This document shows, one piece after another, positions 23,412 to 52,423 of a stretch of 64,000 nucleotides of DNA; position 1 is the first letter of the stretch; each line of letters starts with the position of its first letter. A program made the position numbers and the translations under genes. The DNA comes from Janthinobacterium sp. PAMC25594 (GTDB taxonomy: Bacteria; Pseudomonadota; Gammaproteobacteria; Burkholderiales; Burkholderiaceae_D), in contig NZ_CP080377.1 of the NCBI RefSeq assembly GCF_019443505.1, positions 4,030,001 to 4,094,000 on the forward strand. The letters run 5' to 3'. The notes beneath the pieces were generated by a model that did no database searches, was not told where the DNA came from, and saw only the letters and a program-made list of their open reading frames with translations.

Positions 23412-23780
23412 GTTGCCTCGCTGCGTTGCGCTCCCATGGTGCGGGAGCATTCGATGAGAGCTTAGGGGCTGGCCATCACGGCAGCCAATGAAACATCATG
23501 GTGCAGCCATAACTTTCAGGAATGCACCCTTCCAGTAATCCCGTCATGTGCATGTTTCCCTGTTTCGCGGTGTGCTGGAGGCGCCACCAGCATAGGGCGC
23601 GATGCTTGACTACGCCAATAAATATTGCTTATTTATCTATAATGTAAAGCGATACGTACGGTAAAACATCGTTTTTTTAAGTGTATAACCGTTATTTATG
23701 GCCATTTTCCATTTATTCATGGGTGGACGGGCTACGCGCAAGCGCCATCGCTATTACACTAGGAGGACAAGGAGAACTGT
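23412..23780. other. Divergent intergenic region, dadA-like / GntR regulator
   Basis: 369 bases without a gene. The left half, on the minus strand, holds the bipartite element and dadA promoter plus a small hairpin (arms GCTCCC/GGGAGC, 23430-23448) just upstream of the dadA start. The right half (about 23610-23700) is much AT-richer than its surroundings and contains TATAAT near 23638. Two purine-rich ribosome-binding sites (AGGAGG, AAGGAG) precede the GntR gene. Confidence 0.7.
23484..23520 (-). promoter_or_regulatory. Bipartite 37-bp element upstream of the dadA-like gene
   Basis: Read on the minus strand: CCTGAAAGTTAT, 14 bases, GTTTCATTGGC. The TTGGCT at its end can act as a -35 box, with TAAGCT about 18 bases later. 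It ends 73 bases before the start codon. Near-identical elements lie upstream of the peptide-binding protein and TonB receptor genes. Confidence 0.72.
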
Positions 23781-24521
23781 ATGAGCCAGACCAGCGTAGA
23801 ACTCAAGGTCGATTTAAATGACAATTCGCCTTTATATATGCAGATCGCCCGCAAGCTGAGCGATGACGTACGCAACGGCCGCTACCAGGTAGACCAGGCC
23901 CTGCCATCCGAACGAACCCTGTCCGAACTGCTCGACGTATCGCGCGTGACTGCCCGCAAGGCTATCGATCAATTGGTCGAGCAAGGCCTCGTCGTGCGCC
24001 GCCGTGGTTCGGGCAACTATATTGCCCCGCGCATCGAACAGCCGCTGTCGAACCTGTCGAGCTTTTCCGAGCAGTTGCAGCAGCGCGGCTACCGCCCCGG
24101 CTCGCGCTGGCTCAAGCGCGATGTCGTCATCGCCAGCAGCGATGAACAGCTGAGCCTGGGCCTGGCGCAGAACACGAAAGTGGCGCGCCTCGAGCGCTTG
24201 CGCCTGGCCGACGATGTGGTGATGGCGTATGAAGTGAGCGTGCTGCCATTCAGCGTGGTGCCGGATCCGGCCGCCGTGGGCGATTCGCTGTACGAATACT
24301 TGAACAGCATCAAGAAGGCCCCCGTGCGTGCCTTGCAGCACATCCGCGCCATGAACGCGACGGACGTGCTGGCCAAGCAGCTGGGCATCCCTGATGGCCA
24401 GGCCGTGCTATTTATTACGCGCATCGCCTACCTGGAATCGGGCGAGGCGGTGGAACTCACGCATTCGTATTGCCGCAGCGATCATTACGATTTTGTGGCG
24501 GAAATGCGCCGCGCTCCCTGA
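23781..24521 (+). CDS. GntR-family regulator with UTRA domain (NagR-like)
   Basis: 246 residues: an N-terminal GntR winged helix (about 15-80, PLYMQIARKLSDDVRNGRY ... VSRVTARKAIDQLVEQGLV) and a C-terminal UTRA effector domain (about 100-240) of the HutC/NagR subfamily. Such regulators often respond to amino-sugar phosphates. The murQ-ampG-kinase recycling genes begin 2.5 kb downstream, which makes GlcNAc-6-P or MurNAc-6-P plausible effectors; no matching operator dyad was found upstream of murQ. It could also control the divergent dadA-like gene. Confidence 0.88.
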   Translation: MSQTSVELKVDLNDNSPLYMQIARKLSDDVRNGRYQVDQALPSERTLSELLDVSRVTARKAIDQLVEQGLVVRRRGSGNYIAPRIEQPLSNLSSFSEQLQQRGYRPGSRWLKRDVVIASSDEQLSLGLAQNTKVARLERLRLADDVVMAYEVSVLPFSVVPDPAAVGDSLYEYLNSIKKAPVRALQHIRAMNATDVLAKQLGIPDGQAVLFITRIAYLESGEAVELTHSYCRSDHYDFVAEMRRAP

Positions 24522-24523
24522 AT

Positions 24524-25657
24524 CTACTGATCGAGCAGGCGGATCATGGATTCGGCCACGCCGACGGACGACTCCCAGCTCATGCCGGTCACCAGCCGGC
24601 CATCGACCTCGACGTGACTCTTGCCGTTGGCGCCGTGCCTGAAGATGCCGCCATGGCGCTTGATGCTGGCTTCCGCCGAAAAGGGATAGGCCTTGTATAC
24701 CGGCGATTCCTTGTTGAGATACGCATCGGGGAACGAGGTGAGCACCTTGCCCTGGATCAGGAAAGTCCCGTCACTGAGCTTCAGATTCTTGATGCCCTCG
24801 GTGCCATGGCAGATGGCCGCGATCACCCCGCCCTGTTGTTCGTAGATGCGCACAGCGATGTCCTGCAGCGGCTGGTTGTCCGGGATGCCGACGATGGCCG
24901 CGCCGCCGCCGACGAACGCCATGCCCGCATACTCGTCTGCCCTGACCTCGGCGACGGGCCTGGTATGGGCCAGTGCCCACATGAAATCACTGTCGTACAG
25001 ATGCTTCTTGAGCAACTCGTCCGATGTGACGATCATTTCCAAAGGAATGGCGCCCCCCTCGGGACTGACGAAATCGACCGCGTACCCTGCTTTGCGAAAG
25101 GCATCATAGGTATAGGCCAGCTCGGGAAAATTATTGCCTGCGTTAATTTTCGTGCCCGGATATTGATGCACATTCGACACCACCAGCAGCACCTTGCGTG
25201 CGCGGTGCGGGGCTGCCGGCTCGCGATCGGCCGACTTGCTGATGATCTTCCAGTGGCCGGCGATCTTTTTCAACAGAAATACATCCACATAGCGCACCCC
25301 GTGCTGGGGAATGTGGATCTCGGCCTTGGCGGTGGCCACCTTGCCGCTCGCCTCCACCTTGATCAGTCGCCCGTGGCGCCCATTGAATTGCCCTATTTTT
25401 TCTTGGGAAAAGAGTTTGGCGTATTCCGGACCACTGAGCTCCCATTCCGCATCGTTTTTGCCGTCCAGGTAAAGACGGGCGTTTGCATGGAAGGCCTGGT
25501 TGATCTCATCCGGTACGTTGAAGCTGGTGCCATGCAGATACAAGCGTACGGTCTCCCGGATGGCATTTTCGTCCTGGTCGGCGGTTGCGGCGATGCCGGC
25601 GGCGGCGCTGCTGAGCAAGCAACAGGCGAGTATCGTTCGCAATAAAAACTGAATCAT
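24524..25657 (-). CDS. Exported fusion of NTF2-like (lumazine-binding-type) and DJ-1/PfpI domains
   Basis: 377 residues. A signal peptide (1-24) precedes an NTF2-like domain (about 28-145, with AIRETVRLYLHGT and GHWKIISKSADR) and a DJ-1/PfpI domain (about 154-375). The nucleophile elbow VIAAICHGTEG supplies Cys283-His284. PfpI members are proteases, glyoxalases or chaperones; one predicted for the periplasm and fused to an NTF2-like domain is uncommon. It sits between the GntR gene and a membrane-bound AraC regulator on the same strand. The start at MIQFLLRTILACC was preferred over an ATG five codons upstream. Confidence 0.8.
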   Translation of the reverse strand: MIQFLLRTILACCLLSSAAAGIAATADQDENAIRETVRLYLHGTSFNVPDEINQAFHANARLYLDGKNDAEWELSGPEYAKLFSQEKIGQFNGRHGRLIKVEASGKVATAKAEIHIPQHGVRYVDVFLLKKIAGHWKIISKSADREPAAPHRARKVLLVVSNVHQYPGTKINAGNNFPELAYTYDAFRKAGYAVDFVSPEGGAIPLEMIVTSDELLKKHLYDSDFMWALAHTRPVAEVRADEYAGMAFVGGGAAIVGIPDNQPLQDIAVRIYEQQGGVIAAICHGTEGIKNLKLSDGTFLIQGKVLTSFPDAYLNKESPVYKAYPFSAEASIKRHGGIFRHGANGKSHVEVDGRLVTGMSWESSVGVAESMIRLLDQ

Positions 25658-25799: not shown

Positions 25800-26858
25800 T
25801 TACGCGGAAATGGTCCTGGCCGCCTGGCTGGGTTGAGCCCGGAAGCTGGCGGGCGTCTGCCCAGCAACTTTCTTGAAGGTCGAGTAGAAGGTGGAACTGG
25901 AATTGAAGCCGCAGCGCTCGGCAACGGTATCCATGTTCAGTTGCGGTTCGTCTATCAATACCTGTTGCGCTTCGGCGATACGGTATGCGTTGACGTAGGT
26001 GTTGAAACCCTTGCTCAGCTTGTCATTCAGCACCTGCGACACCTGCGCCTGCGTACATCCCGCCCGTTTGGCCAGTTGGGCCAGGGTCAGATTCGGATTC
26101 AGATAGGATTTCTGCCCGCTCATCTGTTGTTCCAGCGCAGCGAGCACGGCCAGCGCATCGTCGTGCGTCAGGCGGCTGTTCTGGTACTTCTGCTTCGGGT
26201 CGCCAGGCGTCGAGGTTTCCTTTCTCAGCAGAAAGACCATAACCGCGACATGCAGCGAGAAGGTGAACGACAAGGCACCGACAATATACGACGTGAACGG
26301 CGTGCTCGCGTATGCCGCCAGCATGATAGCGCTGCCTGCAAAGACGCTCAGCACTAGCACGCTGCTGGTCGCCATCCGCTGTCCGTCATTCAGCCATGCA
26401 TGGCGGCTTTGCCAGAGCAACTTGGCAGTTGCCAGCAGGTAGCCTAGCCAGAACACATGAATGGCATGACTCGACAGGTCCCACACACGACGATACGCGG
26501 AATACGGAAAGGCAACGCCTATGACTATCAGCAGGAAGGACAGGCCGAGATGCCAGCGCCATTGCTGCCCGGCAGGCAGTTGCGTGAGCCCGGCGATGAA
26601 AGAGCGCACATAGAGATAGGTCAAGGGACCGATCAGCAGGCAGGCCGACAGGCCCAGCTGGCGAAATTCGATGGCGATCGCCGGGTTGAAGTAGAGGAAG
26701 GCGGATTTGGCGGTGCGCACCCCGACGGCAAGCAGCAATGCACCGAGCATGCAGTCGGCGAGGCAGCGAGGCCGACGGCTGAAAAAATAGACGGCCAGGA
26801 AAATGCCGTTGATGGCGCCAAGGGCGCTAAACAGGAACAGCAATTGGCGAGCGATCAT
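25800..26858 (-). CDS. Membrane-bound AraC-family transcriptional regulator
   Basis: 352 residues. The first 235 or so contain six to seven hydrophobic helices, and the C-terminal 100 residues (about 245-345) are an AraC DNA-binding domain with two helix-turn-helix units (LTLAQLAKRAGCTQAQVSQVLN; LNMDTVAERCGFNSSSTFYSTFKK). This 7TM-AraC layout belongs to one-component sensors that bind DNA from the membrane. The likely target is the PfpI fusion gene 142 bases downstream, by proximity only. The start at MIARQLLFLFSALGA puts the first helix at the N-terminus. Confidence 0.85.
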   Translation of the reverse strand: MIARQLLFLFSALGAINGIFLAVYFFSRRPRCLADCMLGALLLAVGVRTAKSAFLYFNPAIAIEFRQLGLSACLLIGPLTYLYVRSFIAGLTQLPAGQQWRWHLGLSFLLIVIGVAFPYSAYRRVWDLSSHAIHVFWLGYLLATAKLLWQSRHAWLNDGQRMATSSVLVLSVFAGSAIMLAAYASTPFTSYIVGALSFTFSLHVAVMVFLLRKETSTPGDPKQKYQNSRLTHDDALAVLAALEQQMSGQKSYLNPNLTLAQLAKRAGCTQAQVSQVLNDKLSKGFNTYVNAYRIAEAQQVLIDEPQLNMDTVAERCGFNSSSTFYSTFKKVAGQTPASFRAQPSQAARTISA

Positions 26859-27044
26859 GGGCGTGTCATGGATTAGGACGTCGAATCGAAGTATAGACAC
26901 AAACGGGAGCGTATCGAAGTACAAGTAGTACGCCACCTTCCTGCACCAGCCATAAACTCCCGTTATGCCCGCCCACCAAGCTTTCATGGCTGATCTTGCC
27001 CGTTGGTATTAAACTGGTTTCACGTTCAACTATGTTCTGAAATC

Positions 27045-27926
27045 ATGTTGAAAACTGAAACCCCGAGCCGGCGGCATCCGGATCTGGACCTGTATCCTGT
27101 GGAGCAACTGGTGGCGGCGCTGGTCGATGACCAGTTCTGGGCTGTCGAAGCCGTGCGGCTGGCCTCGCCGCAGATAGCGGCCGCCATCACGGCCGCCCTG
27201 CCCCGCATCGCCGCTGGCGGACGCCTGCTGTACGTGGGCGCGGGCACGTCGGGCCGGCTTGGCGTGCTCGACAGCGTTGAATTGACTCCCACGTTTTCCT
27301 GGCCACCCGAGCGGGCCGTCGCCATCCTGGCTGGCGGCGCGGGCGCCATGTTTGCGGCCGTCGAAGGGGCGGAAGATGATGTACAACAAGGCGAGCGGGA
27401 TGTGCTGGCCTTGCAGCCGCAGGTCAACGATGTGGTGATCCTGCTGGCCGCCTCCGGCGCCACACCGTACGTGCTGGGTGCGCTGCTGGCCGCGCGCCAG
27501 GCGGGCGCCTTGACGATCGGCATCGCCAACAATGTGGACGCTCCCGTGGCGCATGAGGCGCAATGCGGCATCGTGCTCGACACGGGTATGGAAGTCATTT
27601 CCGGCAGCACGCGTCTGAAAGCGGGCACGGCGCAAAAAATCACCCTGAACACGATTTCCAGCGCCTTGATGGTGGGTTTGCATAAAACTTACGGAAACTT
27701 GATGGTAGACTTGAAGCCGACCAACGCCAAGCTGATCTGGCGGGCGGTGCGTCTGACCATGCATGCCACGGGCGCCAGCGAGGCGCAGGCCAGGGCCGTG
27801 CTGGAGCAATGCCACTATCACGTCAAGGTGGCGATAGTTGCCTTGATCAAAAAAATCAACACAAACCAGGCACAGGCATTGTTGGCCGGCGCGGACGGCA
27901 GTGTGCGGGTGGCACTGGCGGCCTGA
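27045..27926 (+). CDS. murQ: N-acetylmuramic acid 6-phosphate etherase
   Basis: 293 residues with a SIS fold. Signature segments: LLYVGAGTSGRLGVLDSVELTPTF near residue 65, LLAASGATPYVLGAL, GMEVISGSTRLKAGTAQKITLN and the C-terminal helical domain. It cleaves the lactyl ether of MurNAc-6-P to give GlcNAc-6-P and D-lactate, the key step of cell-wall sugar recycling. The ATG is reported after a weak ribosome-binding region; the longer frame is not homologous-looking. First gene of a plus-strand recycling block. Confidence 0.94.
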   Translation: MLKTETPSRRHPDLDLYPVEQLVAALVDDQFWAVEAVRLASPQIAAAITAALPRIAAGGRLLYVGAGTSGRLGVLDSVELTPTFSWPPERAVAILAGGAGAMFAAVEGAEDDVQQGERDVLALQPQVNDVVILLAASGATPYVLGALLAARQAGALTIGIANNVDAPVAHEAQCGIVLDTGMEVISGSTRLKAGTAQKITLNTISSALMVGLHKTYGNLMVDLKPTNAKLIWRAVRLTMHATGASEAQARAVLEQCHYHVKVAIVALIKKINTNQAQALLAGADGSVRVALAA

Positions 27927-27971: not shown

Positions 27972-29270
27972 ATGGAGCTAGTGAAACAAACCGCCGCGGC
28001 GCGCGCGAACAAGCCGTGGCTGTGGATCCCATCCCTGTATTTCGGCCAGGGCATTCCCTATGTAGTGGTCATGACCTTGTCCGTGATCATGTACAAGAAC
28101 TATGGTTTCAGCAATACGGATATCGCGCTGTATACCAGCTGGCTGTACTTGCCTTGGGTCATCAAGCCCCTGTGGTCGCCCTTTATCGATATGTACCGCA
28201 CCAAGCGTTTCTGGATCGTCGGCTTGCAGCTGGTGATCGGCGCCGCGCTGGCGCTGGTGGCCCTGACGACGTCCTTGCCCCACTTTTTCCAGATCAGCCT
28301 GGCCATCTTCTGGCTGATGGCCTTCAGTTCCGCCACGCATGACATCGCCGCCGACGGCTTTTATATGCTGGGCCTGGAAGAGCACCAGCAGGCGGCCTTT
28401 GTCGGCGTGCGCAGCACGTTTTATCGCCTGGCCATGATCGCGGGCCAGGGTGGCCTGGTGTTTCTGGCCGGCTATCTCACGCATGCGACGGGCAATGTGC
28501 AGCTGGCCTGGTCCGTCGTGTTCGCGATTCTGGCGGGCCTGTTCATCGCCCTGTTCCTGTACCACTATTTTGTCTTGCCGAAACCGAAAGATGACCGCCC
28601 CAGCATCCAGGACGCCGGTGTTTCCCCGTTGCAAGAGTTCGTCGCCACCTTTGCCGCCTTCTTCAAGAAGAAGGATATTGTCGTCATCCTCGGCTTCTTG
28701 CTGCTGTTCCGCCTCGGCGAAGCGCAACTGCTCAAATTGGCCGCGCCCTTCCTGCTCGACCCCGTCACCAAGGGCGGCCTGGGCCTGAGCACGGAACAGG
28801 TGGGCCTCGTCTACGGCACCATCGGCGTGATTGCCCTGACCCTCGGTGGCTTGCTGGGCGGATTCATCATTTCCCGCTTCGGCTTGAAACGCTGTCTGTG
28901 GATCATGGTGCTGTCCGTGCACCTGCCCGACCTGGTCTTCGTCTACCTGGCCAGCGCCTTGCCCAGCAGCATCTATGTGATCGCGGGGGGCATCGCCCTG
29001 GAGCAATTTGGCTATGGCTTCGGTTTCGCCTCGTACATGTTGTACATGATCATGGTGTCCGATGGCGCGCATAAAACGGCCCATTACGCCATTTGCACGG
29101 GTTTCATGGCCCTGGGCATGATGCTGCCGGGCATGGCCAGCGGCTGGATACAGCAAATGCTCGGCTACCAGCATTTCTTCATCTGGGTCTGCATCGCCAC
29201 CATTCCTGCTTTCATCATGGCCGCGCTGGTCAAGATCGATCCGGAATTCGGCAAGAAGGCCGAGGCTTGA
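27972..29270 (+). CDS. ampG: AmpG-like muropeptide/MFS permease
   Basis: 432 residues with about 12 membrane helices. N-terminal IPSLYFGQGIPYVVV, the loop SWLYLPWVIKPLWSPFID, and ATHDIAADGFY match the AmpG family, which imports anhydro-muropeptides across the inner membrane. It follows murQ by 45 bases, preceded by GGGAGA and AAGAAGGA. Other substrates within the family (for example siderophore-type compounds) cannot be excluded, but the neighbours favour cell-wall fragments. Confidence 0.88.
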   Translation: MELVKQTAAARANKPWLWIPSLYFGQGIPYVVVMTLSVIMYKNYGFSNTDIALYTSWLYLPWVIKPLWSPFIDMYRTKRFWIVGLQLVIGAALALVALTTSLPHFFQISLAIFWLMAFSSATHDIAADGFYMLGLEEHQQAAFVGVRSTFYRLAMIAGQGGLVFLAGYLTHATGNVQLAWSVVFAILAGLFIALFLYHYFVLPKPKDDRPSIQDAGVSPLQEFVATFAAFFKKKDIVVILGFLLLFRLGEAQLLKLAAPFLLDPVTKGGLGLSTEQVGLVYGTIGVIALTLGGLLGGFIISRFGLKRCLWIMVLSVHLPDLVFVYLASALPSSIYVIAGGIALEQFGYGFGFASYMLYMIMVSDGAHKTAHYAICTGFMALGMMLPGMASGWIQQMLGYQHFFIWVCIATIPAFIMAALVKIDPEFGKKAEA

Positions 29271-29361: not shown

Positions 29362-31023
29362 TTGTTGTCTACTTTGAAAAAACGCCTGGGCGCCACGGCT
29401 GGCGTGCTGGCCGCGCTGGCCACCGCCACATTGCTCAGCAGCTGTACCAGCACCAAACTGCCCTCCGCAGTGACGCCAGGCGAAGCGGGTTTGCCGGCCG
29501 TGCCGCCCGTGCAGCACATCACGGGCGAAGTGCCGCCGCCGGCGCCGCGCGAGTTCCGCGCCGCCTGGGTCTCGACGGTCGCGAATATCGACTGGCCCAG
29601 CCGCAGCAACTTGCCGGTCGCCAAGCAGCAAGCCGAGGCCATCGCCATCCTCGACCGTGCCAAGTCCTTGAATCTGAACGCGATTGTGCTGCAGGTGCGG
29701 CCCAGCGCTGATACGATTTACCCGTCGCAACTGGAACCGTGGTCGGAATACCTGACTGGCAAGCAAGGCCAGCCGCCGTTGCCCATGTATGACCCGCTGG
29801 CTTTCTGGGTGGCGCAGGCGCATGCGCGCGGCCTGGAATTGCACGCTTGGTTCAACCCCTACCGTGCCCGTCACGCGACGGCCAAGTCGCCGCTGGCGCG
29901 CGACAGTTTCGCGTCCACCAACCCGGCATCCGTCAAGCAATATGGCCGCTACCTGTGGATGGACCCGGGCGACGCCGCCGCCTCGAAGCACACGACGGAC
30001 GTGGTGCTGGACGTGGTGCGCCGCTACGATATCGATGGCGTGCACATCGACGATTACTTTTATCCGTATCCGATCGATGCGCCTGGCGCCGGCGCCGGTG
30101 CGGAAACAGCCGCGCTGGACGCGGGCAATGGCGGCGCCAAGCGCGAACTGCCGTTTCCCGATGAGCCTTCCTGGCAGCAATATCTGCTGGCCGGTGGCCA
30201 GCTGGACCGCCCTTCCTGGCGCCGCCAGAACGTCAACCAGCTGATCGAAGCCTTATATACCGGTATCCACCGCGAAAAGAGCTGGGTGCGCTTCGGCATC
30301 AGCCCGTTCGGCATCGGCCGTCCCGACCGCCGCCCTGCCGGCATCGTCGGTTTCAGCCAGTACGATAAATTGTATGCGGATGCGGAACTGTGGCTGGCCA
30401 AGGGCTGGCTCGATTACCTGTCGCCGCAGCTGTACTGGCCCGTGGCGCAGGCGCCACAGGCGTTTGGCGTGCTGCTCGACTACTGGCTGGCGCAAAATCC
30501 GTATGGCCGCCACGTGTGGCCGGGTTTATATACGAGCCGCATCGACAATTCCGCCAAGTCCTTCACGCCGCAAGAGATCATCAAGCAGATCGAAGTGACG
30601 CGCACGCGCCCCGGCGCGAATGGGCAAGTGCATTTCAGCATGGCGCCGCTGATGCAGAACCGCAAGGGTGTCAGCGAGCAACTCAAGGCCATGGTGTACC
30701 AGAGCCCGGCCTTGATTCCCGCCACGCCGTGGCTGGGCAAGGACGCGCCGGGCACGCCCGTGCTGGCCTTGCGCCGCGATTCCACCAGCCTGAACATCAA
30801 GTTGACGTCGGGTGGCGGCAAACCCGTGGCGCAATATGCCGTCTGGGCCCGCTACGGCGAAGACTGGCGCTTTAGCGTGGTCACGGGCGTGCAGGGTGAG
30901 CTGACCCTGGTCGATGATGCCATTGGTAAAGTCAACGCGGTGGTGGTCAGCGCCGTGGACCGTCTCGGCAATGAAAGCCCCCGCGTCACCGTGCGCACAC
31001 CGTTTACGGCCGCCGCCAAGTAA
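29362..31023 (+). CDS. Lipoprotein glycoside hydrolase, GHL10 family (DigH/YngK-like)
   Basis: 553 residues. The lipoprotein signal ends LLSSC (Cys28). The catalytic GHL10 (DUF187) TIM barrel begins at EFRAAWVSTVANIDWPSR (about 65) and includes NAIVLQVRPSADTIYPS, LHAWFNPYRARH, DGVHIDDYFYPYP and VRFGISPFGIGRPDRRP; a small beta domain ends the protein. E. coli DigH of this family cleaves denuded peptidoglycan glycans, which fits the recycling neighbours. The start codon is TTG, preceded by AAGGAA; a second TTG follows immediately. Confidence 0.87.
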   Translation: MLSTLKKRLGATAGVLAALATATLLSSCTSTKLPSAVTPGEAGLPAVPPVQHITGEVPPPAPREFRAAWVSTVANIDWPSRSNLPVAKQQAEAIAILDRAKSLNLNAIVLQVRPSADTIYPSQLEPWSEYLTGKQGQPPLPMYDPLAFWVAQAHARGLELHAWFNPYRARHATAKSPLARDSFASTNPASVKQYGRYLWMDPGDAAASKHTTDVVLDVVRRYDIDGVHIDDYFYPYPIDAPGAGAGAETAALDAGNGGAKRELPFPDEPSWQQYLLAGGQLDRPSWRRQNVNQLIEALYTGIHREKSWVRFGISPFGIGRPDRRPAGIVGFSQYDKLYADAELWLAKGWLDYLSPQLYWPVAQAPQAFGVLLDYWLAQNPYGRHVWPGLYTSRIDNSAKSFTPQEIIKQIEVTRTRPGANGQVHFSMAPLMQNRKGVSEQLKAMVYQSPALIPATPWLGKDAPGTPVLALRRDSTSLNIKLTSGGGKPVAQYAVWARYGEDWRFSVVTGVQGELTLVDDAIGKVNAVVVSAVDRLGNESPRVTVRTPFTAAAK

Positions 31024-31053: not shown

Positions 31054-31090
31054 TGCAGGCATGAAACATGCGCAAGCTTTCATGCCTGCA
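31054..31090 (+). repeat. Intercistronic 13-bp perfect hairpin upstream of the sugar kinase
   Basis: Arms TGCAGGCATGAAA and TTTCATGCCTGCA enclose an 11-base loop, in the 94-base gap after the glycosidase gene. Like the hairpin at 29281 it lacks a T-tract. It would sequester an in-frame upstream ATG, supporting the downstream start of the kinase. Confidence 0.75.
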
Positions 31091-31117
31091 AGCCCAGCTT
31101 GGCTTTACACTCTTGCC

Positions 31118-32065
31118 ATGATTTCCTTCCCTACAGCCAATAATGCGGTGCCCGTGCTGGGCCTGGGCATCGACGCGGGCGGCACGCAGACGCGCTGGGC
31201 CCTGGCCACCGTTGACGGCGTCATCGTGGCCGACGGGGCAGTGGAAGGCTTGTCTGCCTTGCAAATGAGCAGCGATGCGGGCCGCGCAGCCGTGCACGCC
31301 ACGTTTACCGGGCTGTGCCAGGCCGTACTGGCCGTCGGCCAGCCGCGTGCCGTGGTGGCGGGCTTGACGGGTTTTGGCGGCGACGATGTTGTGCTGGCGA
31401 AAATGTTGTCCGCCTTGCTGGCGCTGGACGCCGGCAACGTCAGCATCGGCAACGATATCGACATCGCGTATCGCGACAGTTTTGAACCAGGTCAGGGTTA
31501 TCTGGTCTACGCTGGCACGGGCTCGATTGCCGCCTGGATCGATGCGGAGGGCGTGTTTCATCGGGCAGGCGGGCGTGGCGTGCTGCTCGACGATGGCGGC
31601 GGCGGTTACTGGATCGCCCGTGAAGCCTTGCGCCACATCTGGCGCCGCGAAGACGAGGCGCCCGGCAGCTGGCAAAGCTCGCCCATGGCCGAGGCCGTGT
31701 TTGCGCAACTGGGAGGCAGCGACTGGTCGCTGTCGCGCGCCTTCATGTATGGCCAGGACCGGGGCGCCATCGGCCGGCTGGCGCTGGCCGTGGCCGCCAG
31801 TGCGGACACCGATCCGCTGGCGCTGGACATCTTGCAGCGCGCGGGCCAGGAGCTGGCGCGTTTGGCGCTGGCCCTGACGGCGCGCTACGGCCCCCGTCCC
31901 GTGGTGCTGGCGGGCCGCGCGGCGCAGTTGCACCCGGCCATCGCCGCTGCCATGCGCACCGCTTTGCCTGTATCGTTGCAGATGGAGCAAAAAGTTGCCC
32001 GCTCGCATGAGGCCGCGGCCAAGCTGGCAGCCAGGACGGCCAGCTTGTATGCCGGCAAAGACTGA
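31118..32065 (+). CDS. BadF/BadG-type sugar kinase (GlcNAc/MurNAc kinase-like)
   Basis: 315 residues of the actin-like ASKHA ATPase superfamily. Phosphate 1 motif LGLGIDAGGTQTRWALA at about residue 13, IGNDIDIAYRDSF (connect/phosphate region), LVYAGTGSIAAWI and GRGVLLDDGGGGYWIAREALR follow. Family members phosphorylate N-acetylglucosamine or N-acetylmuramic acid. With murQ in the block and no anmK seen, it may supply MurNAc-6-P or GlcNAc-6-P; this is inference. An upstream in-frame start is possible but falls in a hairpin. Confidence 0.85.
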   Translation: MISFPTANNAVPVLGLGIDAGGTQTRWALATVDGVIVADGAVEGLSALQMSSDAGRAAVHATFTGLCQAVLAVGQPRAVVAGLTGFGGDDVVLAKMLSALLALDAGNVSIGNDIDIAYRDSFEPGQGYLVYAGTGSIAAWIDAEGVFHRAGGRGVLLDDGGGGYWIAREALRHIWRREDEAPGSWQSSPMAEAVFAQLGGSDWSLSRAFMYGQDRGAIGRLALAVAASADTDPLALDILQRAGQELARLALALTARYGPRPVVLAGRAAQLHPAIAAAMRTALPVSLQMEQKVARSHEAAAKLAARTASLYAGKD

Positions 32066-32095: not shown

Positions 32096-32896
32096 ATGAA
32101 AAAAATCGCCCTCGCCCTGCTGGTGGCCCTGCTTTCCGCCTGTACCACGCCCGCGCCGCACCTCGACCATAGCTTGACGGCGCGCAGCCAGAGCCCGCGC
32201 GTCAAATTCATCGTCATCCATTACACGGTCAGCGACCTGCCCCGCTCGATCAAGATCCTGACGGAACAAGTGGTCAGCAGCCATTATTTGCTGACGGATA
32301 CGGACAAGCCGAAGTTTTACGTGCTGGTCGACGAATCGCGCCAGGCCAATCACGCGGGTGTGAGTAACTGGAAGACTTATACACAGCTGAATGTCAGCTC
32401 GATCGGCATCGAGATCGTCAATCCTGGCTACAAGGACACGCCGGAAGGTCGCCTCTGGTATCCGTTTCCGCAGGCACAGATCGATGAGCTGATTCCGCTG
32501 CTGAAAGATATCCAGGCCCGCTATAACATCGCGCCGGAAAATATCCTGGGTCACAACGAAATCGCCCCGCAGCGCAAGCAGGATCCGGGGCCGCTGTTTC
32601 CATGGCGCCAGCTGGCCGATGCGGGCCTGATCGTCTGGCCCGATGCCAACCGCGTGGCCGCGCAACGAGCCATTTTTGAGCAGCAAGTGCCGGATGCCGT
32701 CTGGTTCCAGAAAAAGCTGGCCCAGCATGGTTACGCGACGCCGAATACGGGCGTCTTCGACGAAGCGACGCGCAATGTGCTGATCGCCTTCCAGATGAAG
32801 TACCGCAATACGCGCTTTGACGGCATGCCCGATGGCGAGACGGCAGCCCTGCTGGAAGTGCTGACGACGCCGGCCGCAGCTGTTGTAGCAAAGTAG
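32096..32896 (+). CDS. amiD: AmiD-like N-acetylmuramoyl-L-alanine amidase lipoprotein
   Basis: 266 residues. The lipoprotein signal ends LLSAC (Cys16). The Amidase_2 domain (about 35-185) has zinc ligands His42 (IHYT), His153 (GHNE) and Asp163 (KQDPG) with Glu106 as a probable catalytic residue. A C-terminal peptidoglycan-binding domain (about 195-260) follows. E. coli AmiD of the same layout is an outer-membrane enzyme that removes peptides from MurNAc and anhydro-MurNAc. It follows the kinase by 30 bases. Confidence 0.93.
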   Translation: MKKIALALLVALLSACTTPAPHLDHSLTARSQSPRVKFIVIHYTVSDLPRSIKILTEQVVSSHYLLTDTDKPKFYVLVDESRQANHAGVSNWKTYTQLNVSSIGIEIVNPGYKDTPEGRLWYPFPQAQIDELIPLLKDIQARYNIAPENILGHNEIAPQRKQDPGPLFPWRQLADAGLIVWPDANRVAAQRAIFEQQVPDAVWFQKKLAQHGYATPNTGVFDEATRNVLIAFQMKYRNTRFDGMPDGETAALLEVLTTPAAAVVAK

Positions 32897-32979: not shown

Positions 32980-33882
32980 ATGCGGCTGCGTCATATCGAA
33001 GTGTTTCACGCCATCATGCAAGTTGGCACCATCAGCGGTGCGGCCCAGGTGCTGCATATCTCGCAACCGGCCGTGACCAAGGTCTTGCAGCATTGCGAGT
33101 TGCAACTGGGCATGCCGCTGTTCGAGCGCGTGCGGGGCAAGCTGTACCCGAAGCCGGAGGCGCACCGTTTGTTTGTCGAAACGGAAAAGCTCAACCGCGA
33201 TTTATTGGGCATCCGCCGCCTGGCGGCCAGCCTGAAGGGCCATGCGGTGGAAACCATCCGCCTGGTGTCCACGCCGACGCTCGCCATCAGCGTCTTGCCG
33301 TTTGCCATGACGGAGTGGCGGCGCGACTTTCCCCATACGCGTTGCCAGCTGGCTACCCACCACACGGGCGAGATCGTCAATACCCTGCGCCTCGGGGAAG
33401 CGGACCTGGCCGTGTCGCTGCAAGACCCGCGCCATCCGGGCATCGTGGCCGAACCCATTGCGCACGGTGTCATGACGGTGATCGCGCCAGCCGGCACCTG
33501 GCATGCGGCCGAGTGCGGCACACCGTTGACGGCGCAGGGCCTCAATGGCGAGCTGATCGGCCATGCGGACAACGATCCGCTGGGCGAACTGGTGGTGGCC
33601 GCCTGCGAGGCACAGGACATCCACCCCGTGTTTTCTACCGTGGTGCAGACGTATCAAATTGCCCGTTCCCTGGTGGAAGCGGGCGCCGGCATGGCCGTGG
33701 TCGACCCGTTTACGGCCGCGTCCGGCTTGCCCGAGCGGCTGCAGCGCCGTCCCTGGGCACCCACGATACCGATCCAACTGTATTTATTGACGGCGAGCCA
33801 CTCGCCGCTGTCGCATGGCGCGCGGCGCCTGGCCGACAGCATCGGCGTGGCGGCGCGCAACTGCCTGGAAAGAGGAGTCTGA
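32980..33882 (+). CDS. LysR-family transcriptional regulator
   Basis: 300 residues with the N-terminal winged helix (MRLRHIEVFHAIMQVGTISGAAQVLHISQPAVTKVLQHCE) and a substrate-binding-like effector domain (about 90-295). Its stop overlaps the ATG of ddpX (TGATG), so it is co-translated with that gene and may regulate it or the whole recycling block. The effector cannot be read from the sequence. Confidence 0.92.
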   Translation: MRLRHIEVFHAIMQVGTISGAAQVLHISQPAVTKVLQHCELQLGMPLFERVRGKLYPKPEAHRLFVETEKLNRDLLGIRRLAASLKGHAVETIRLVSTPTLAISVLPFAMTEWRRDFPHTRCQLATHHTGEIVNTLRLGEADLAVSLQDPRHPGIVAEPIAHGVMTVIAPAGTWHAAECGTPLTAQGLNGELIGHADNDPLGELVVAACEAQDIHPVFSTVVQTYQIARSLVEAGAGMAVVDPFTAASGLPERLQRRPWAPTIPIQLYLLTASHSPLSHGARRLADSIGVAARNCLERGV

Positions 33883-34496
33883 TGTCTGTTGCAAGTTTGC
33901 AATTGGAAGCGGTGGGCAGCGATCCGCAATTTCGCCACCTGAGCAGCATCGCCGGCATTGCCGTCGACTTGCGCTACGCCACGCCCGACAATTTCGTCGG
34001 CCGCGACTTATACAGCCCCATCGATTGTGCCTGGCTGCACCGCGATGCGGCCGCCGCGCTGGAACAGGCAGTGGCTTGGCTGGCTGCGCATCGCCCCGAT
34101 CATCATCTCTTGGTGCTCGATGCGCTGCGCCCGCAGCGGGTGCAGCAGCAACTGTGGGATGCGCTGCAGGGAACCGAGTTGCTGGGCTACATCGCCGAGC
34201 CGTCGCGCGGCTCGATCCACTCGTTCGGCATGGCGCTCGACATCACCATCGTCGGGCCGGACGGGCAGGAACTGGACATGGGCACGGGCTTTGACGACTT
34301 GAGTGAGCGCTCGCATCCGGCGCTGGAGCTGGCTTTGCTGGAAAGCGGGGAGATTACGCAGGAGCAGGTGGCGCACCGCCGCTTGTTGCGCGACGCCATG
34401 TTCCAGGCGGGCTTCTTCGGCATCAACAGCGAATGGTGGCATTTCGATTGCGGCGACCGGGTGCTGGTGCGCCAGACCTACACCCGGGTACTCTGA
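33882..34496 (+). CDS. ddpX: D-alanyl-D-alanine dipeptidase
   Basis: 204 residues, the usual VanX/DdpX size. Zinc ligands are His113 and Asp120 in SIHSFGMALD, and His187 in EWWHFD, with Glu184 as catalytic base; Arg83 in LDALRPQ matches the transition-state Arg. It hydrolyses D-Ala-D-Ala. AGAGGAG precedes the ATG, which overlaps the LysR stop by one base. In this context it would recycle D-Ala rather than give vancomycin resistance; no vanH/vanA gene is present. No signal peptide, so cytoplasmic. Confidence 0.94.
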   Translation: MSVASLQLEAVGSDPQFRHLSSIAGIAVDLRYATPDNFVGRDLYSPIDCAWLHRDAAAALEQAVAWLAAHRPDHHLLVLDALRPQRVQQQLWDALQGTELLGYIAEPSRGSIHSFGMALDITIVGPDGQELDMGTGFDDLSERSHPALELALLESGEITQEQVAHRRLLRDAMFQAGFFGINSEWWHFDCGDRVLVRQTYTRVL

Positions 34497-47590: not shown

Positions 47591-49093
47591 TTATTGACCG
47601 GCAACCACAGGCGTCGCGCCGCTCCTGGCCACCCACTCGATCAGCGCATCGACGGCGGCGCGGCCATTGCCATTGCCCACCAGGTCGCTATTGATCATGG
47701 CGACCACCACGCATAACTGGTTGTTGGCATCAGGCACGTAGCCGGCAATGGCGACCACATTTTTTAATGTCCCCGTCTTGATGCGGGCGCGCGCGGCGGC
47801 TGGGCTGTTCAGCAGGCGCTTGCGCATGGTGCCGTCCAGCGCCACGATGGGCAGGCTGGACTGGAACTCGGGCGCCCACGGACTTTGCTGCATCGCTTGC
47901 AGCACGCCAGCCATTTGTGCTGGCGCAATGCGTCCCGTGCGCGACAAGCCGGAGCCGTTGTCGACCAGCATGCCCTGGGTGTCGATATGGTGCCGCTGGA
48001 ACCATTCCTGGATGACCAGTCGCGCCCGATTGGCCGTATCTTCCGGCGCCGCCATGGCGACGGGGCGGCTGCCCAGCCAGTTATCGCTCTGCAAGCTGCC
48101 CAGGCTGAGGAACAGGGTGCGGGCCAGAGTGTTGTCGGACGTCTTGTTGATATCGCGCAAGACTTCCGGCAAGGCCCGCGCCACATGGTCGGCCAGCATG
48201 CGCGTGCCGACCGGCTCGGCCGTCGGCGGCAAGCCCGTAAATGGCGCTTCGCGCACCGTGCCCGTGATCGTGCCGCCCAGGCGTTTCCAGGTGGCACGGA
48301 ACAAGCGGTCCGCATAATCGTTGCGGTCGAGCACATTGATGCTGGTGGCCTTGCTGCAGTTTTGCGGGAAGGTGCCGTGCAAGATCACCTGCAGCTTGCC
48401 GCTCGCATCGCGCCGGTATTCGGGCGGGTGCCAACCGTCTTCCCATTTGGCACAGCTGCCCTTGACCAGCTTCATGTCGCTGGTGATGCTGACGTTCTCC
48501 AGCGGCGGCTGCATCAGGATGCTCAATTGCCGATCCGTCGAGTTCATGTTGATATCGAGCAAATTGGTGTTCAGCAACAAGGCATCGGGAATGACGTTGT
48601 AGCGGAACTCGGCCGACTCATCGAAGGGCGGCGTACCGATATCGGGCCGGGCTGGCTGGAACAACTGGCGGTCCAGAATCAGGTCGCCCTTGATTTTGAC
48701 GATGCCCTGGTTGCGCAGGGTTTGCAGCATGTGTGCCAGCACGTCCGCGTTGAAATCCGTGTCGGCGCCGCCACGCAGGATCAAGTCGCCTTTCAGCACG
48801 CCATTGATGACGTCGGCGCTGGTGCGCAATTCCGTGCGGCCGCGGAAGATGGGGCCCAATTGCTCCAGGCCCACGGCCGTCGTCACCAGCTTCATGGTGG
48901 AAGCGGGCTGCATGCTGCGCTCGGCGCCGTGCGACAGCACGGTGGCGTTGCCACGCAAAACGATGGCGCCCATGGCGTCTTCGGGAATATTCGCGCTGCG
49001 CAGCAGCAGGCTGACGGATTCGGGCAATTGCGCGTGGGCAGTCGACAGGCCAAGACCCGCCAACAGCGCAGCCATCAGAACAGGACGTAACAT
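47591..49093 (-). CDS. dacB: D-alanyl-D-alanine carboxypeptidase/endopeptidase (PBP4)
   Basis: 500 residues. A signal peptide ends near THA-QL (about 21). The penicilloyl-serine motif is SxxK at Ser65-Lys68 (PASTMK); SxN is SDN in NKTSDNTLAR; KTG is in IKTGTLKNVV. The large insert between SxxK and SDN is typical of class C low-molecular-mass PBPs. It trims D-Ala and cleaves cross-links in the periplasm, generating material for the recycling genes on the other side of the rRNA operons. It is 8 bases downstream of the membrane protein gene. Confidence 0.95.
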   Translation of the reverse strand: MLRPVLMAALLAGLGLSTAHAQLPESVSLLLRSANIPEDAMGAIVLRGNATVLSHGAERSMQPASTMKLVTTAVGLEQLGPIFRGRTELRTSADVINGVLKGDLILRGGADTDFNADVLAHMLQTLRNQGIVKIKGDLILDRQLFQPARPDIGTPPFDESAEFRYNVIPDALLLNTNLLDINMNSTDRQLSILMQPPLENVSITSDMKLVKGSCAKWEDGWHPPEYRRDASGKLQVILHGTFPQNCSKATSINVLDRNDYADRLFRATWKRLGGTITGTVREAPFTGLPPTAEPVGTRMLADHVARALPEVLRDINKTSDNTLARTLFLSLGSLQSDNWLGSRPVAMAAPEDTANRARLVIQEWFQRHHIDTQGMLVDNGSGLSRTGRIAPAQMAGVLQAMQQSPWAPEFQSSLPIVALDGTMRKRLLNSPAAARARIKTGTLKNVVAIAGYVPDANNQLCVVVAMINSDLVGNGNGRAAVDALIEWVARSGATPVVAGQ

Positions 49094-49101: not shown

Positions 49102-50340
49102 TTAATGGAAAAAGACGTAGGCGACAAAGACGGCCGTGACCACGCCAGCGAAATCGGCGATCAGGCCGGCCGTGATCGCATAGCGCGTCTTGCGGATGCC
49201 GACGGAACCGAAGTACAGGGCCACGATATAGAAGGTGGTGTCGGCCGAGCCCTGGAAGACGCAGGCCAGGCGGCCGACGAAGGAATCGACGCCGTAGGTA
49301 TTCATGGCGTCGATCATCATGGCTTTCGAGCCGGAGCCGCTGAGCGGCTTCATCATGGCCGTCGGCAGGGCGGGCACGAAGTCCGTATTGATGCCCAGGT
49401 TGGCGAAGAACCAGTTCATGCCGCTCATCAGGAAATTGAACACGCCCGCGTTGCGGATCACGCTGATGGCCACCAGCATGCCGACCAAGTAGGGAATCAC
49501 GGTAATCGAGGTCTGGATACCGCCTTTCGCCCCTTCGATGAAGGCGTCATACACGTTCACCTTCTTGCGCAGGGCGCCGATGATGAAGATGGCAATGACG
49601 CTGATCAACACCAGATTGCTGACCACCTTGGACACCAGCTCGATTTCCTGTTTCGTCAGATATTGCGTGAAATACCAGATCATGGCGACGATGGCGCTCG
49701 TCATGCCGCCCATCCAGCTCAGGACGACGCGGTTGAGCAGGTTAATGCGTTGCTTGATGGACACCGTGATGATGCCGACCACAGTGGCCACATAGGTGGC
49801 GATCATGCAGGGGATAAAGATGTCGGACGGGTCGGCTGCGCCGAGGATGGAGCGCTGCGCCATGATGGCCAGCGGAATCAGGGTCAGGCCCGAGGTGTGC
49901 AGCACCAAAAACATGATTTGCGCATTCGTCGCCTCTTCCTTGTTCGGATTCAGGGTTTGCAGGCTTTCCATGGCTTTTAAACCGAACGGCGTGGCCGCAT
50001 TGTCCAGACCCAGCAGGTTGGCCGAGAAATTCATCACCATGTGTCCGGTCGCCGGATGGTCTTTCGGAATTTCCGGGAAGATGCGCGAAAAGAAGGGCGC
50101 GATCACTTTCGCCAGCCAGCCGACGATGCCCGCTTTTTCACCAATGTTCATGATGCCCAGCCATAAGGTCATCACGCCCGCCAGCGGCAGGGCGATATCC
50201 ATCACACCCATGCGCGCCGTTTCAAACGTGCCGTCGATGATGCGCTTGAAGATATCGTTATCGCCGAGAAACAGCCACTGCAGCACCGCGGCCAGGAAGC
50301 CAACGAGGAAAAAGCCGGACCAGATGTAATTAAGTGCCAT
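49102..50340 (-). CDS. SpmA/SpmB-like membrane protein with two Gate domains
   Basis: 412 residues with about 9-10 hydrophobic segments. Two nucleoside-recognition (Gate) domains are visible, at about 40-160 (MNFSANLLGLDNAATPFGLKAM) and 270-400 (LPTAMMKPLSGSGSKAMMIDAM), so it is the fused equivalent of Bacillus SpmA and SpmB. The transported or sensed molecule is unknown. It is co-directional with dacB (8-base gap), as in several gram-negatives, suggesting a link to cell-wall metabolism. It diverges from the peptide-binding protein gene across a 214-base gap holding a bipartite element. Confidence 0.88.
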   Translation of the reverse strand: MALNYIWSGFFLVGFLAAVLQWLFLGDNDIFKRIIDGTFETARMGVMDIALPLAGVMTLWLGIMNIGEKAGIVGWLAKVIAPFFSRIFPEIPKDHPATGHMVMNFSANLLGLDNAATPFGLKAMESLQTLNPNKEEATNAQIMFLVLHTSGLTLIPLAIMAQRSILGAADPSDIFIPCMIATYVATVVGIITVSIKQRINLLNRVVLSWMGGMTSAIVAMIWYFTQYLTKQEIELVSKVVSNLVLISVIAIFIIGALRKKVNVYDAFIEGAKGGIQTSITVIPYLVGMLVAISVIRNAGVFNFLMSGMNWFFANLGINTDFVPALPTAMMKPLSGSGSKAMMIDAMNTYGVDSFVGRLACVFQGSADTTFYIVALYFGSVGIRKTRYAITAGLIADFAGVVTAVFVAYVFFH

Positions 50341-50437
50341 ATGCGATCAGTTCTGTGTGTCGGGAGTGAAAAATGTCTGCATACAAAGTATAGGGGCAGC
50401 CCGATACGAGTTGATGAAAGAATGCAGCAATCGCATG

Positions 50438-50474
50438 CCAAAAAGTTATAAGCTGGCAGCCTGTTTTCATTGGC
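50438..50474 (+). promoter_or_regulatory. Bipartite 37-bp element upstream of the peptide-binding protein gene
   Basis: CCAAAAAGTTAT, 14 bases, TTTTCATTGGC. The terminal TTGGCG can serve as -35, with TAGTGT 18 bases later. It ends 80 bases before the start codon and could also act on the divergent membrane-protein gene. Confidence 0.78.
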
Positions 50475-50554
50475 GCCCCGTCGCTTGCCCGCGTAGTGTG
50501 GGGGATGCCTGTCGCTTATCGCTGTTCGTTACCCTTGTCTGCACTGGATCACTG

Positions 50555-52360
50555 ATGATGTTTTTACGCAAAACCGCCTGCGCCGCCAGCCTGGCCCTGT
50601 TGACGCTTTTTAGCGTGCCCGGCATTGCCGCCACCGATGCCCGCGCGAACAAGACCTTGCACTTGTTCTTGAGCACCAGCGAGACGGGCCTGGACCCGGC
50701 CGTGGCCTCGGACCTGGCCAGCCTGAATTTGATGGAAAATATTTTTGACCCGCTCTTGCGCTATGACTACCTGACGCGTCCGGTGCAGCTGCAGGGCAAT
50801 ACGGCGCGCGGCTTGCCCACCGTGGAAGATGGCGGACGCACGTATCTGTTTCACTTGCAGCCTGGTATTTTCTTCACCCCCGATCCCGCCTTCAAGGGCC
50901 GGCCGCGCGAAGTGACGGCGCAGGATTATGTCTACAGCCTGACGCGCCTGTATGACCCCGGCCTGAAGTCGCCGTGGCTGTTCTTGCTGGAGGACAAGCT
51001 GGTGGGCGATGCGGCCCTGAAAGCCAAATTCAGCTACGACACGCCGATCGCCGGCTTGCAGGCGCTGGACAAATACACCTTGCGCATCCGCCTCAACGCC
51101 ATCGACCCGAACTTCCTGTTTTACCTGGCCATGCCGGCGACTGCCGTGGTGGCGCGCGAAGTGGCCGAAGCGTACCCGGCGGCAGGGCAGATCGGTAATC
51201 ACCCCGTGGGCACGGGGCCGTTCCTGGTCAAGGAATGGAAGCGCAGCGACAAGATCGTGCTGCAAGCCAATCCGACTTTCCGTGCCACCGTGTTCCATAC
51301 CGAGGCCAAGGCGCTGGCCGCCTTGCCGGTCGACGTGCGCGCCATCGCCACTGCGCTGGAAGGCAAGCGCTTACCGCTGGTCGAGCGTATCGAAGTGCGC
51401 ATCGTCGAGGAATATCAATCGCGCATGCTGGGTTTCCTGAAAGGCGAATTCGATTACCTGGAACAAGTGCCGGAATCGATGACGGACATGGTGCTGGAAA
51501 ACGGCGCCCTGAAACCGGCGCTGGCCGCCAAGGGCTTGCAACTGACGCGCTTTCCCGTGCTGCAGACGTATTACATGTGGATGAACATGGACGACCCCGT
51601 GCTGGGTGGCACGAGCAAGGACAAGCTGGCCCTGCGGCGCGCCATCGCCCTCAGCTACAACAGCCGCGAAGACATCGCCTTATTAAAAAAGGGGCTGGCC
51701 TTGCCGGCGCAGTCGCCGCTGCCGCCGAATGTGCTCGGTTACGACAAGGCTTACCGCAGCCCCGTCGGCTACGATCCGGCGCTGGCGCGCGCCTTGCTGG
51801 ACCGCTTCGGCTACAAGGTGGGCGTCGATGGTTTCCGCACGCAGCCCGATGGCACGCCCTTGCTGCTGACCATGCACACGGAGCCGAGCACGGTGGGCCG
51901 GCTGCGCGATGAATTGTGGCGCCGCAACCTGAACGCCATCGGCCTGCGCGTGGAGTTCAAAAGCGACAAGAAGACGGAAATCATCAAGGCGTCGCGCCTG
52001 GGCAAGGTGCAGATGTTCGAGACCAACTGGATCGCCGACTTCCCCGATGGTGATAACTTTATGCAATTGTTGTATGGCGGCAACGTTGGCCGCGCCAACT
52101 ATGCCCGCTTCAATTTGCCCGATTACAATAAACGCTATGAGGAGGCGCGCCTGCTATCCGATACGCCGCGCCGACGCAGTCTGTACTTCGACCTGTTTCA
52201 GCTGATCCACGCTTACACGCCGTGGGTGCTGCTGACGCATCCCATCTCTGCCGACCTGCAGCAACCGTGGCTAAAAAACTACAGGCGCCACCCCGTGGAA
52301 TTCACGTCCTGGCGCTATCTGGACGTCGATCCCGCCAAGGGCCGCCCCGCAGGCAAGTGA
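50555..52360 (+). CDS. Family 5 extracellular solute-binding protein (peptide type)
   Basis: 601 residues. A signal peptide ends near GIAATDA (about 25). The SBP_bac_5 fold follows, with GLDPAVASDLASLNLMENIFDPLLRYDY near the N-terminus, GTGPFLVKEW and RRAIALSYNSRED as family marks. Members bind oligopeptides, glutathione, nickel or muropeptides. No permease or ATPase gene is adjacent, so it must share a transporter encoded elsewhere. The TonB receptor gene follows 217 bases later. Start was set at the ATG-ATG pair before FLRKTACAASLALL. Confidence 0.88.
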   Translation: MMFLRKTACAASLALLTLFSVPGIAATDARANKTLHLFLSTSETGLDPAVASDLASLNLMENIFDPLLRYDYLTRPVQLQGNTARGLPTVEDGGRTYLFHLQPGIFFTPDPAFKGRPREVTAQDYVYSLTRLYDPGLKSPWLFLLEDKLVGDAALKAKFSYDTPIAGLQALDKYTLRIRLNAIDPNFLFYLAMPATAVVAREVAEAYPAAGQIGNHPVGTGPFLVKEWKRSDKIVLQANPTFRATVFHTEAKALAALPVDVRAIATALEGKRLPLVERIEVRIVEEYQSRMLGFLKGEFDYLEQVPESMTDMVLENGALKPALAAKGLQLTRFPVLQTYYMWMNMDDPVLGGTSKDKLALRRAIALSYNSREDIALLKKGLALPAQSPLPPNVLGYDKAYRSPVGYDPALARALLDRFGYKVGVDGFRTQPDGTPLLLTMHTEPSTVGRLRDELWRRNLNAIGLRVEFKSDKKTEIIKASRLGKVQMFETNWIADFPDGDNFMQLLYGGNVGRANYARFNLPDYNKRYEEARLLSDTPRRRSLYFDLFQLIHAYTPWVLLTHPISADLQQPWLKNYRRHPVEFTSWRYLDVDPAKGRPAGK

Positions 52361-52386
52361 CCACGTCGTTGAAAAGGGCATTCATT

Positions 52387-52423
52387 CCAAAAAGTTATGG
52401 TTAGGAAAGCATTTTTCATTGGC
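52387..52423 (+). promoter_or_regulatory. Bipartite 37-bp element upstream of the TonB receptor gene
   Basis: CCAAAAAGTTAT, 14 bases, TTTTCATTGGC: both blocks are base-for-base identical to the copy at 50438, with the same spacing but an unrelated spacer. It ends 154 bases before the GTG start. Confidence 0.78.

Follow-up and report, generated by a model that had tools for sequence, protein, structure and literature searches.

What do a DadA-like D-amino acid dehydrogenase, a periplasmic peptide-binding protein and a TonB-dependent outer-membrane receptor have in common, that their genes are each preceded by the same two-block element? The three genes lie in a stretch of 64,000 nucleotides of Janthinobacterium sp. 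PAMC25594 (contig NZ_CP080377.1, positions 4,030,001 to 4,094,000), which we call the window and whose features are listed in Table 1. A preliminary description, made from the letters alone, had seen here a candidate regulon of unlinked genes with what looked like an activator site, possibly for a LysR-type protein. Having compared the window with related genomes, we consider it very probable that each copy of the element is an operator-promoter of the LysR-type transcriptional regulator (LTTR) encoded at 32980-33882, which would activate genes for the uptake and digestion of cell-wall fragments through all three copies.

Copies of the element and their recurrence in relatives

All three copies were found at the places, with the letters and with the equal spacing described before. 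The pattern AAAGTTAT-N15-TTTCATTGGC has just three occurrences in the 6.55-Mb chromosome, all of them within the window, and with up to three mismatches the window still holds three matches where 0.01 would be expected from shuffled sequence. A search of the whole chromosome with up to two mismatches returned only these three copies; at three mismatches there were two further matches, compared with three for a control with the reversed pattern. The element is real.

We then surveyed a family set of 294 Oxalobacteraceae genomes, own genome included, taking sites from those listed. The element recurs across many genera with a gap of 15 bp and differing spacers, as the earlier claim of unrelated spacers at a fixed gap had it. 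Numbers were obtained from 76 loci (L036-L111, 1.44 Mb) collected by one scan with the peptide-binding protein. With a spacer of 15 these loci hold 58 matches (42, 9, 5 and 2 at zero, one, two and three mismatches), and all other spacers from 8 to 22 pooled gave one exact match, none at one mismatch, two at two and 36 at three. The exact off-spacing match has a spacer of 14 and the two with two mismatches a spacer of 22. The former, in L042, stands before a TonB receptor gene and is a natural operator with a 14-bp gap caused by the deletion of one T. A spacer of 9 accounts for 21 of the 36 off-spacing matches with three mismatches, perhaps owing to a conserved coding stretch.

Of the 58 matches with up to three mismatches, 56 are found 30-260 bp in front of a cluster gene, none inside and two elsewhere, where inside refers to located cluster genes only and elsewhere may include coding DNA of other genes. 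The preliminary description had named equal frequency inside genes and upstream of them as the outcome that would speak against a regulatory site, and this is not the distribution we see. At exactly four mismatches the counts are 2 upstream, 1 inside and 6 elsewhere.

Further genes carry the element in relatives. It stands before dadA in other genera (e.g., L123, L127, L128 and L201-L213), and the gene for an S12-type hydrolase beside dadA has its own copy (L120, L131, L132, L148). In genome G284 a second GHL10 gene, a paralogue of 36% identity, is preceded by an element about 1.9 Mb away from the regulator (L125, G284:C1:3014300-3019400). Copies with two to three mismatches before the MurQ and BadF kinase genes in L217 suggest a wider regulon in the genus group g72.

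Architecture of the sites

The architecture was read from sites in front of cluster genes, of which thinning to less than 80% identity left 64 non-redundant ones (30 before receptor, 15 DadA, 10 S12, 6 peptide-binding protein, 2 MurQ and 1 BadF genes; a smaller earlier set had 37). The core blocks are constant partly through selection, and it is the unselected columns outside the core that are informative. At all three window copies an arm CAT(T/G)CC begins 8 bp upstream of AAAGTTAT, and among the 64 sites its unselected columns show C 45 times and A and T 60 times each. The arm provides the T of an interrupted dyad T(-6)-N11-A(+6), as known from LysR-type operators (T 60/64, A 63/64; only the T column lies outside the selection letters). 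Downstream, a TAnnnT box follows 20-21 bp after TTGG at all three copies, with its TA conserved among the 64 sites in two registers. Both blocks were described correctly at the outset, but the conserved site is longer, extending from the CAT arm to the putative -10 box. The overlap of an activator site with the -35 box that had been proposed is also supported; the TAnnnT follows TTGGC by 18-19 bp.

LysR-type regulators have a layout with a recognition site around -65 and an activation site at -35. The centre of the dyad CAT-N2-C-N5-G-N2-ATG falls about 65 bp ahead of the start deduced from the putative -10 box, and the -65/-35 layout fits if the conserved TAnnnT is this box. With the CAT arm completing a T-N11-A dyad about 65 bp before this start and a putative -10 box following TTGG, the element appears to be laid out like the activator site of a LysR-type regulator. 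For the LysR motif T-n11-A an extended form, CTATA-n9-TATAG, has been published (PMC5002191, excerpt). Our sites share with LysR-type operators an AT-N11-AT dyad, the second block over the -35 region and the fixed spacing; they differ in that the first block varies more than the second, in which only a CATT half-site can be seen. A palindrome between the two blocks is weak by eye.

Two other kinds of element were considered and rejected. A sigma-54 promoter does not fit by the spacing of its GG and GC elements, as judged by eye, and an Rfam scan of the window for RNA elements returned rRNA and tRNA only.

The candidate regulator and its co-occurrence with the element

The protein encoded at 32980-33882 is a full LTTR (PF00126 56.1 bits, cut-off 26.6; PF03466 101.9 bits, cut-off 28). 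Among the 79 HTH_1 matches of the own genome it is the one inside the window (a longer frame overlaps), and its gene sits between those for an AmpD-like amidase and an M15 dipeptidase. The idea of a LysR-type activator site is supported and gains a candidate in this protein; the suggested CysB has to be dropped, since the protein scores 33.1 bits with the NCBIfam CysB model, whose cut-off is 436, and 50.4 bits with a CysB-family model (cut-off 402). The best NCBIfam model is PRK11013 (residues 2-287), which we take to be that of LysR itself, with 110.7 bits below the equivalog cut-off of 288. None of 31 PDB matches (E <=0.001) is named AmpR, several carrying only general LysR-family names, and a protein search yielded 1043 proteins; the 120 listed are mostly unnamed or plain "LysR family" and added no function.

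Within the genus the LTTR is present in 32 of 40 genomes (own included), all 32 of which hold at least two elements. Of the eight genomes without it, three being only 82-88% complete, six have no match and two have one each. The single match of G021 has no cluster gene located near. In G008 (L161) the amidase and SNF symporter genes are direct neighbours, with neither LTTR nor M15 gene between them, and the element of the peptide-binding protein gene has one changed core letter.

For the family we counted a genome as LTTR-positive at an identity of at least 55%, which applies to 92 of the 294. A match with up to two mismatches is found in 75 of these 92 and in 52 of the 202 LTTR-negative genomes, leaving 150 genomes with neither. 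Outside the genus, among the matches listed, 25 of 30 sites in LTTR-positive genomes are at most 17 kb away from the LTTR gene; of the other five, one is 1.9 Mb distant and four are on contigs other than that of the LTTR gene. The 17 LTTR-positive genomes without such a match are mostly apparent exceptions: 15 carry diverged copies with a 15-bp gap at the expected promoters before receptor, DadA or S12 genes (2-4 core mismatches, mostly 3-4). Copies in L202, L207 and L217 have two mismatches in the 17-letter core and were missed because the family search also scored the last C. With up to four mismatches these 17 genomes gave 39 matches upstream, none inside located genes and 4 elsewhere, compared with 5 upstream for spacers 13, 14, 16 and 17 pooled.

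The regulator position is covered at 45 places, namely 44 loci and the window. Both LTTR and element are present at 14, neither at 29, the LTTR only at 2 and the element only at none. In the 29 regulator-negative loci no match with up to four mismatches was found around the peptide-binding protein gene, the dadA promoters lying mostly beyond the loci. L082 and L089 have kept receptor (44% and 53% identity) and carboxypeptidase genes and have neither LTTR nor element. In G165, the MurQ and LTTR genes are found between element-bearing DadA and receptor genes (L128); the regulator match (G165:C15:297979-298869) has one in-frame TAG, though there are operators on both sides. Genome G300, counted as LTTR-negative, is the one from which L110 comes (identical in site letters and in the contig coordinate, 2873257), where the LTTR stretch is present and broken across frames in an assembly 48% complete.

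Several results weigh against the LTTR as the regulator of the element. In 40 stretches chosen for holding a match with up to two mismatches, 28 matches are upstream, none inside and 17 elsewhere, and isolated matches with one or two mismatches in genomes at large are therefore often background (we counted as such those with no located cluster gene nearby, e.g., L129, L143-L147, L149, L150, L152-L156, L158 and L159). The LTTR-negative genomes contain 66 matches compared with 32 for a control pattern, an excess which is only partly explained; many, but not all, of these 66 matches are background, and most of the extra g72 matches there were judged so by letters alone. The relaxed search with three to four mismatches covered the 17 exception genomes, the LTTR-negative ones being searched genome-wide at up to two. 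LTTR-positive cases with no recognisable site are L214 (G294) and L216 at up to four mismatches, L058 and L071 near the peptide-binding protein gene, and L073, which lies on a contig of the same length as that of L214 and has the peptide-binding protein and carboxypeptidase genes but neither receptor gene nor element. In the tree of the peptide-binding protein, about five of six independent pairs agree with co-occurrence, none opposes it and one shows no difference (median sign-test p 0.0625), a test unable to reach 0.05 because there are so few independent pairs. The presence of the element also tracks that of the receptor (four independent pairs), and therefore the regulator and its targets may travel together as a block. 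Finally, the TTTCATTGG block has no clear dyad, and the window shows no copy of the element next to the LTTR gene.

To sum up, the sequence comparisons make the LTTR at 32980-33882 the most likely regulator of the element.

The probable target genes and the surrounding cluster

The target genes flank a single peptidoglycan-recycling cluster that is split by two rRNA operons (Table 1). They are not unlinked, as had been assumed, but form the two ends of this cluster. Loci of Massilia, Duganella and Rugamonas have the same gene order over the length that they cover.

The dehydrogenase scores above the cut-off of its DadA subfamily model; its likely start is at 23411, the longest frame beginning at 23450. 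The peptide-binding protein has the murein peptide-binding protein (3o9p/4toz) among its PDB relatives, not as the best matches, and solved relatives of the receptor are only distant, such as Cir, BtuB and enterobactin receptors. The LD-carboxypeptidase gene is probably co-transcribed with the receptor gene. Its product reaches 182 bits with the NCBIfam muramoyltetrapeptide carboxypeptidase model, below the cut-off of 378, and has by eye a leader resembling twin-arginine (Tat) signals, SRRRFGG, near its start.

Between these ends, MurQ exceeds the cut-offs of PRK05441 (352.7 bits, cut-off 168) and PRK12570 (306.3, cut-off 255) and stays below that of the equivalog TIGR00274 (281.3 vs 302). The AmpG, AmpD, kinase, M15 and LD-carboxypeptidase assignments denote family membership, the scores being below NCBIfam equivalog or subfamily cut-offs. 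Cwp19, the one PDB match of the GHL10 protein, is a peptidoglycan hydrolase (PMC5765458, excerpt).

Some further observations concern the neighbourhood. Many Janthinobacterium loci end short on the rRNA side of the peptide-binding protein gene, perhaps at contig ends in the rRNA. The interval 24524-26987 between the GntR and MurQ genes holds a DJ-1/PfpI-domain gene and the AraC-family gene; in several other genomes GntR and MurQ genes are adjacent (L120, L131, L148). At 56531-57463 there is a gene for a BrkB-family membrane protein, overlapped by a frame without Pfam match (56491-57468).

Table 1. Positions of putative regulatory sites and of genes in the window
Feature	Position	Strand	Details
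Operator copy 1, before DadA-like gene	23484..23524	-	CATTCC arm 23519-23524, AAAGTTAT 23509-23516, TTTCATTGGC 23484-23493
Operator copy 2, before peptide-binding protein gene	50434..50474	+	CATGCC arm, AAAGTTAT 50442-50449, TTTCATTGGC 50465-50474
Operator copy 3, before TonB receptor gene	52383..52423	+	CATTCC arm, AAAGTTAT 52391-52398, TTTCATTGGC 52414-52423
Putative -10 box TAAGCT, DadA-like gene	23459..23464	-	sequence; TA conserved at same distance in non-redundant sites
Putative -10 box TAGTGT, peptide-binding protein gene	50494..50499	+	sequence; position conserved
Putative -10 box TACTCT, TonB receptor gene	52444..52449	+	sequence; conserved in other genera
DadA-like D-amino acid dehydrogenase	22164..23411	-	NCBIfam PRK00711 429.1 bits, cut-off 383; Pfam DAO
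Periplasmic peptide-binding protein, SBP_bac_5 family	50558..52360	+	profile matches
TonB-dependent outer-membrane receptor	52578..55331	+	Pfam Plug, TonB_dep_Rec
LD-carboxypeptidase (S66)	55357..56484	+	Pfam Peptidase_S66; best PDB chain 6uuk, annotated muramoyltetrapeptide carboxypeptidase
LysR-type regulator, proposed binder of the three operators	32980..33882	+	Pfam HTH_1, LysR_substrate; co-occurrence with element
GntR/UTRA regulator, divergent from DadA-like gene	23781..24521	+	
AraC-family regulator	25800..26987	-	
MurNAc-6-phosphate etherase MurQ	27003..27926	+	NCBIfam models
AmpG-family-like major facilitator superfamily (MFS) permease	27972..29270	+	189.5 bits, below curated cut-off 350
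GHL10 glycoside hydrolase	29362..31023	+	only PDB match is peptidoglycan hydrolase Cwp19
BadF-type amino-sugar kinase	31061..32065	+	NagK-like, below cut-off
Amidase_2 with peptidoglycan-binding domain, AmpD-like	32096..32896	+	80.7 bits, below cut-off 143
Peptidase_M15, D-Ala-D-Ala dipeptidase-like	33882..34496	+	142 bits, below cut-off 176; starts at end of regulator gene
Two complete tandem rRNA operons inside the cluster	36360-47383		equal Rfam scores
PBP4/DacB-type DD-carboxypeptidase/endopeptidase	47591..49093	-	198 bits, cut-off 107.8
Gate-domain membrane protein	49102..50340	-	profile match

Alternative explanations

The alternative that survives best keeps operator and LTTR and changes the substrate: the regulon might serve D-amino-acid-containing or ordinary peptides at large, with the peptidoglycan genes as mere neighbours. 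DadA acts on many D-amino acids, the best PDB relatives of the peptide-binding protein are general peptide or heme binders, and the distant relatives of the receptor and the several cluster proteins that do not reach the cut-offs of the curated peptidoglycan models would also agree with it. We nevertheless think it unlikely, as the receptor has an LD-carboxypeptidase for a partner, the LTTR gene lies between the AmpD-like amidase and M15 dipeptidase genes, and a Cwp19-like GHL10 gene has its own site in G284 (L125).

The LTTR might also repress, or act both ways as AmpR does, instead of being a plain activator, and the position of the second block over the -35 box would suit a repressor. A weak -35 box with a recognition site around -65 fits activation, however, and sites are missing or changed, not kept, where the LTTR is missing, so that we regard repression as improbable.

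A fixed 15-bp gap with an unconserved spacer is typical of sigma-factor promoters, and the two blocks could be read as the -35 and -10 boxes of an alternative sigma factor of the extracytoplasmic function (ECF) type. This is very unlikely in view of the separate TAnnnT conserved 20-21 bp after TTGG, the third conserved arm upstream (A and T each in 60 of 64 sites) that forms the T-N11-A dyad, and the co-occurrence of the element with the LTTR.

Least probable of all is control by the GntR/UTRA (23781-24521) or AraC (25800-26987) protein, although both genes are near copy 1 and an AraC dimer might fit a bipartite site of 37 bp: GntR is disfavoured by L060, L061, L062 and L093, which contain its gene (in part truncated at the edge of the locus) with no element around the peptide-binding protein gene, the dadA promoters lying outside these stretches, and AraC is rejected with a presence in 20 of 40 genus genomes and no match in 12 of the 32 that have both element and LTTR.

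Proposed mechanism and biological meaning

Sequence comparison provides our model with the site and its architecture, the location ahead of cluster genes, the co-occurrence with the regulator and the peptidoglycan context; direct binding, activation (not repression), ligand and substrate we infer. CAT-N2-C-N5-G-N2-ATG, about 65 bp before the deduced start, would be the high-affinity T-N11-A recognition site, and WTTCATTGG over the -35 box the activation site of the weak promoter that follows (TTGGC, 18-19 bp, TAnnnT). The LTTR at 32980-33882 would bind all three sites, sense a cytoplasmic product of an imported cell-wall peptide and activate three sets of genes, those for the TonB receptor with its LD-carboxypeptidase, for the D-amino acid dehydrogenase and for the peptide-binding protein. 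The S12-type serine hydrolase of relatives and, in one genome, the second GHL10 enzyme appear to be under its control as well. Material would then pass from the receptor via trimming by the carboxypeptidase and capture by the binding protein to the oxidation of D-alanine.

The job of the regulon is likely the uptake of muropeptides or D-amino-acid peptides. The functions that had been linked at the outset (outer-membrane uptake, periplasmic binding and amino-acid oxidation) are those we find; as their theme, peptidoglycan fragments fit the context better than sulfur or general peptides.

Several known systems may be compared. AmpR is a LysR-type regulator of ampC that senses muropeptides (PMC13046382, excerpt). 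With it our system shares the link between an LTTR and peptidoglycan recycling, and differs in having genes of uptake and catabolism as targets. E. coli LysR, the activator of lysA and the sole E. coli LTTR compared, is 28% identical to the window LTTR over 285 positions; its effector is diaminopimelate (PMC6254735, excerpt), and it differs in its targets and by the PRK11013 score given above. Tannerella forsythia takes up environmental muropeptides (PMC5388701, excerpt) and thus likewise scavenges outside wall fragments; compared by description only, the window locus has a TonB receptor and an LTTR. In Caulobacter, N-acetylglucosamine (GlcNAc) clusters combine TonB receptors with GntR-type regulators (PMC13046382, excerpt), which is a similar tie of a TonB receptor to amino-sugar and wall metabolism. 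According to the same excerpt one receptor is GlcNAc-specific and the range of the other is open, and the co-regulated enzymes of the window act on peptide parts.

The operator class is already known; its assignment to this regulator is strongly supported by the comparisons and the muropeptide role is plausible. In the literature searched (titles and abstract openings, with most subscription papers and all preprints outside) we found no description of this regulon or of a LysR-controlled muropeptide TonB receptor in Oxalobacteraceae. Tentatively, and with some doubt, we suggest that the receptor is an energised outer-membrane importer of muropeptides or stem peptides shed by other cells and that the LTTR, as a regulator distinct from AmpR, senses wall fragments. 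In a single regulon the LTTR would then switch on the import of the fragments, their trimming by an LD-carboxypeptidase that is exported, their capture and the oxidation of D-alanine, and the bacterium could in this way feed on the walls of its neighbours.

Through this analysis a hitherto anonymous TonB receptor of several Oxalobacteraceae genera is assigned an operator, a gene for its regulator and a probable class of substrates. If this receptor carries muropeptides, these bacteria would have a defined route across the outer membrane by which to scavenge peptidoglycan from outside, and there would be a second LTTR logic beside AmpR for sensing peptidoglycan.

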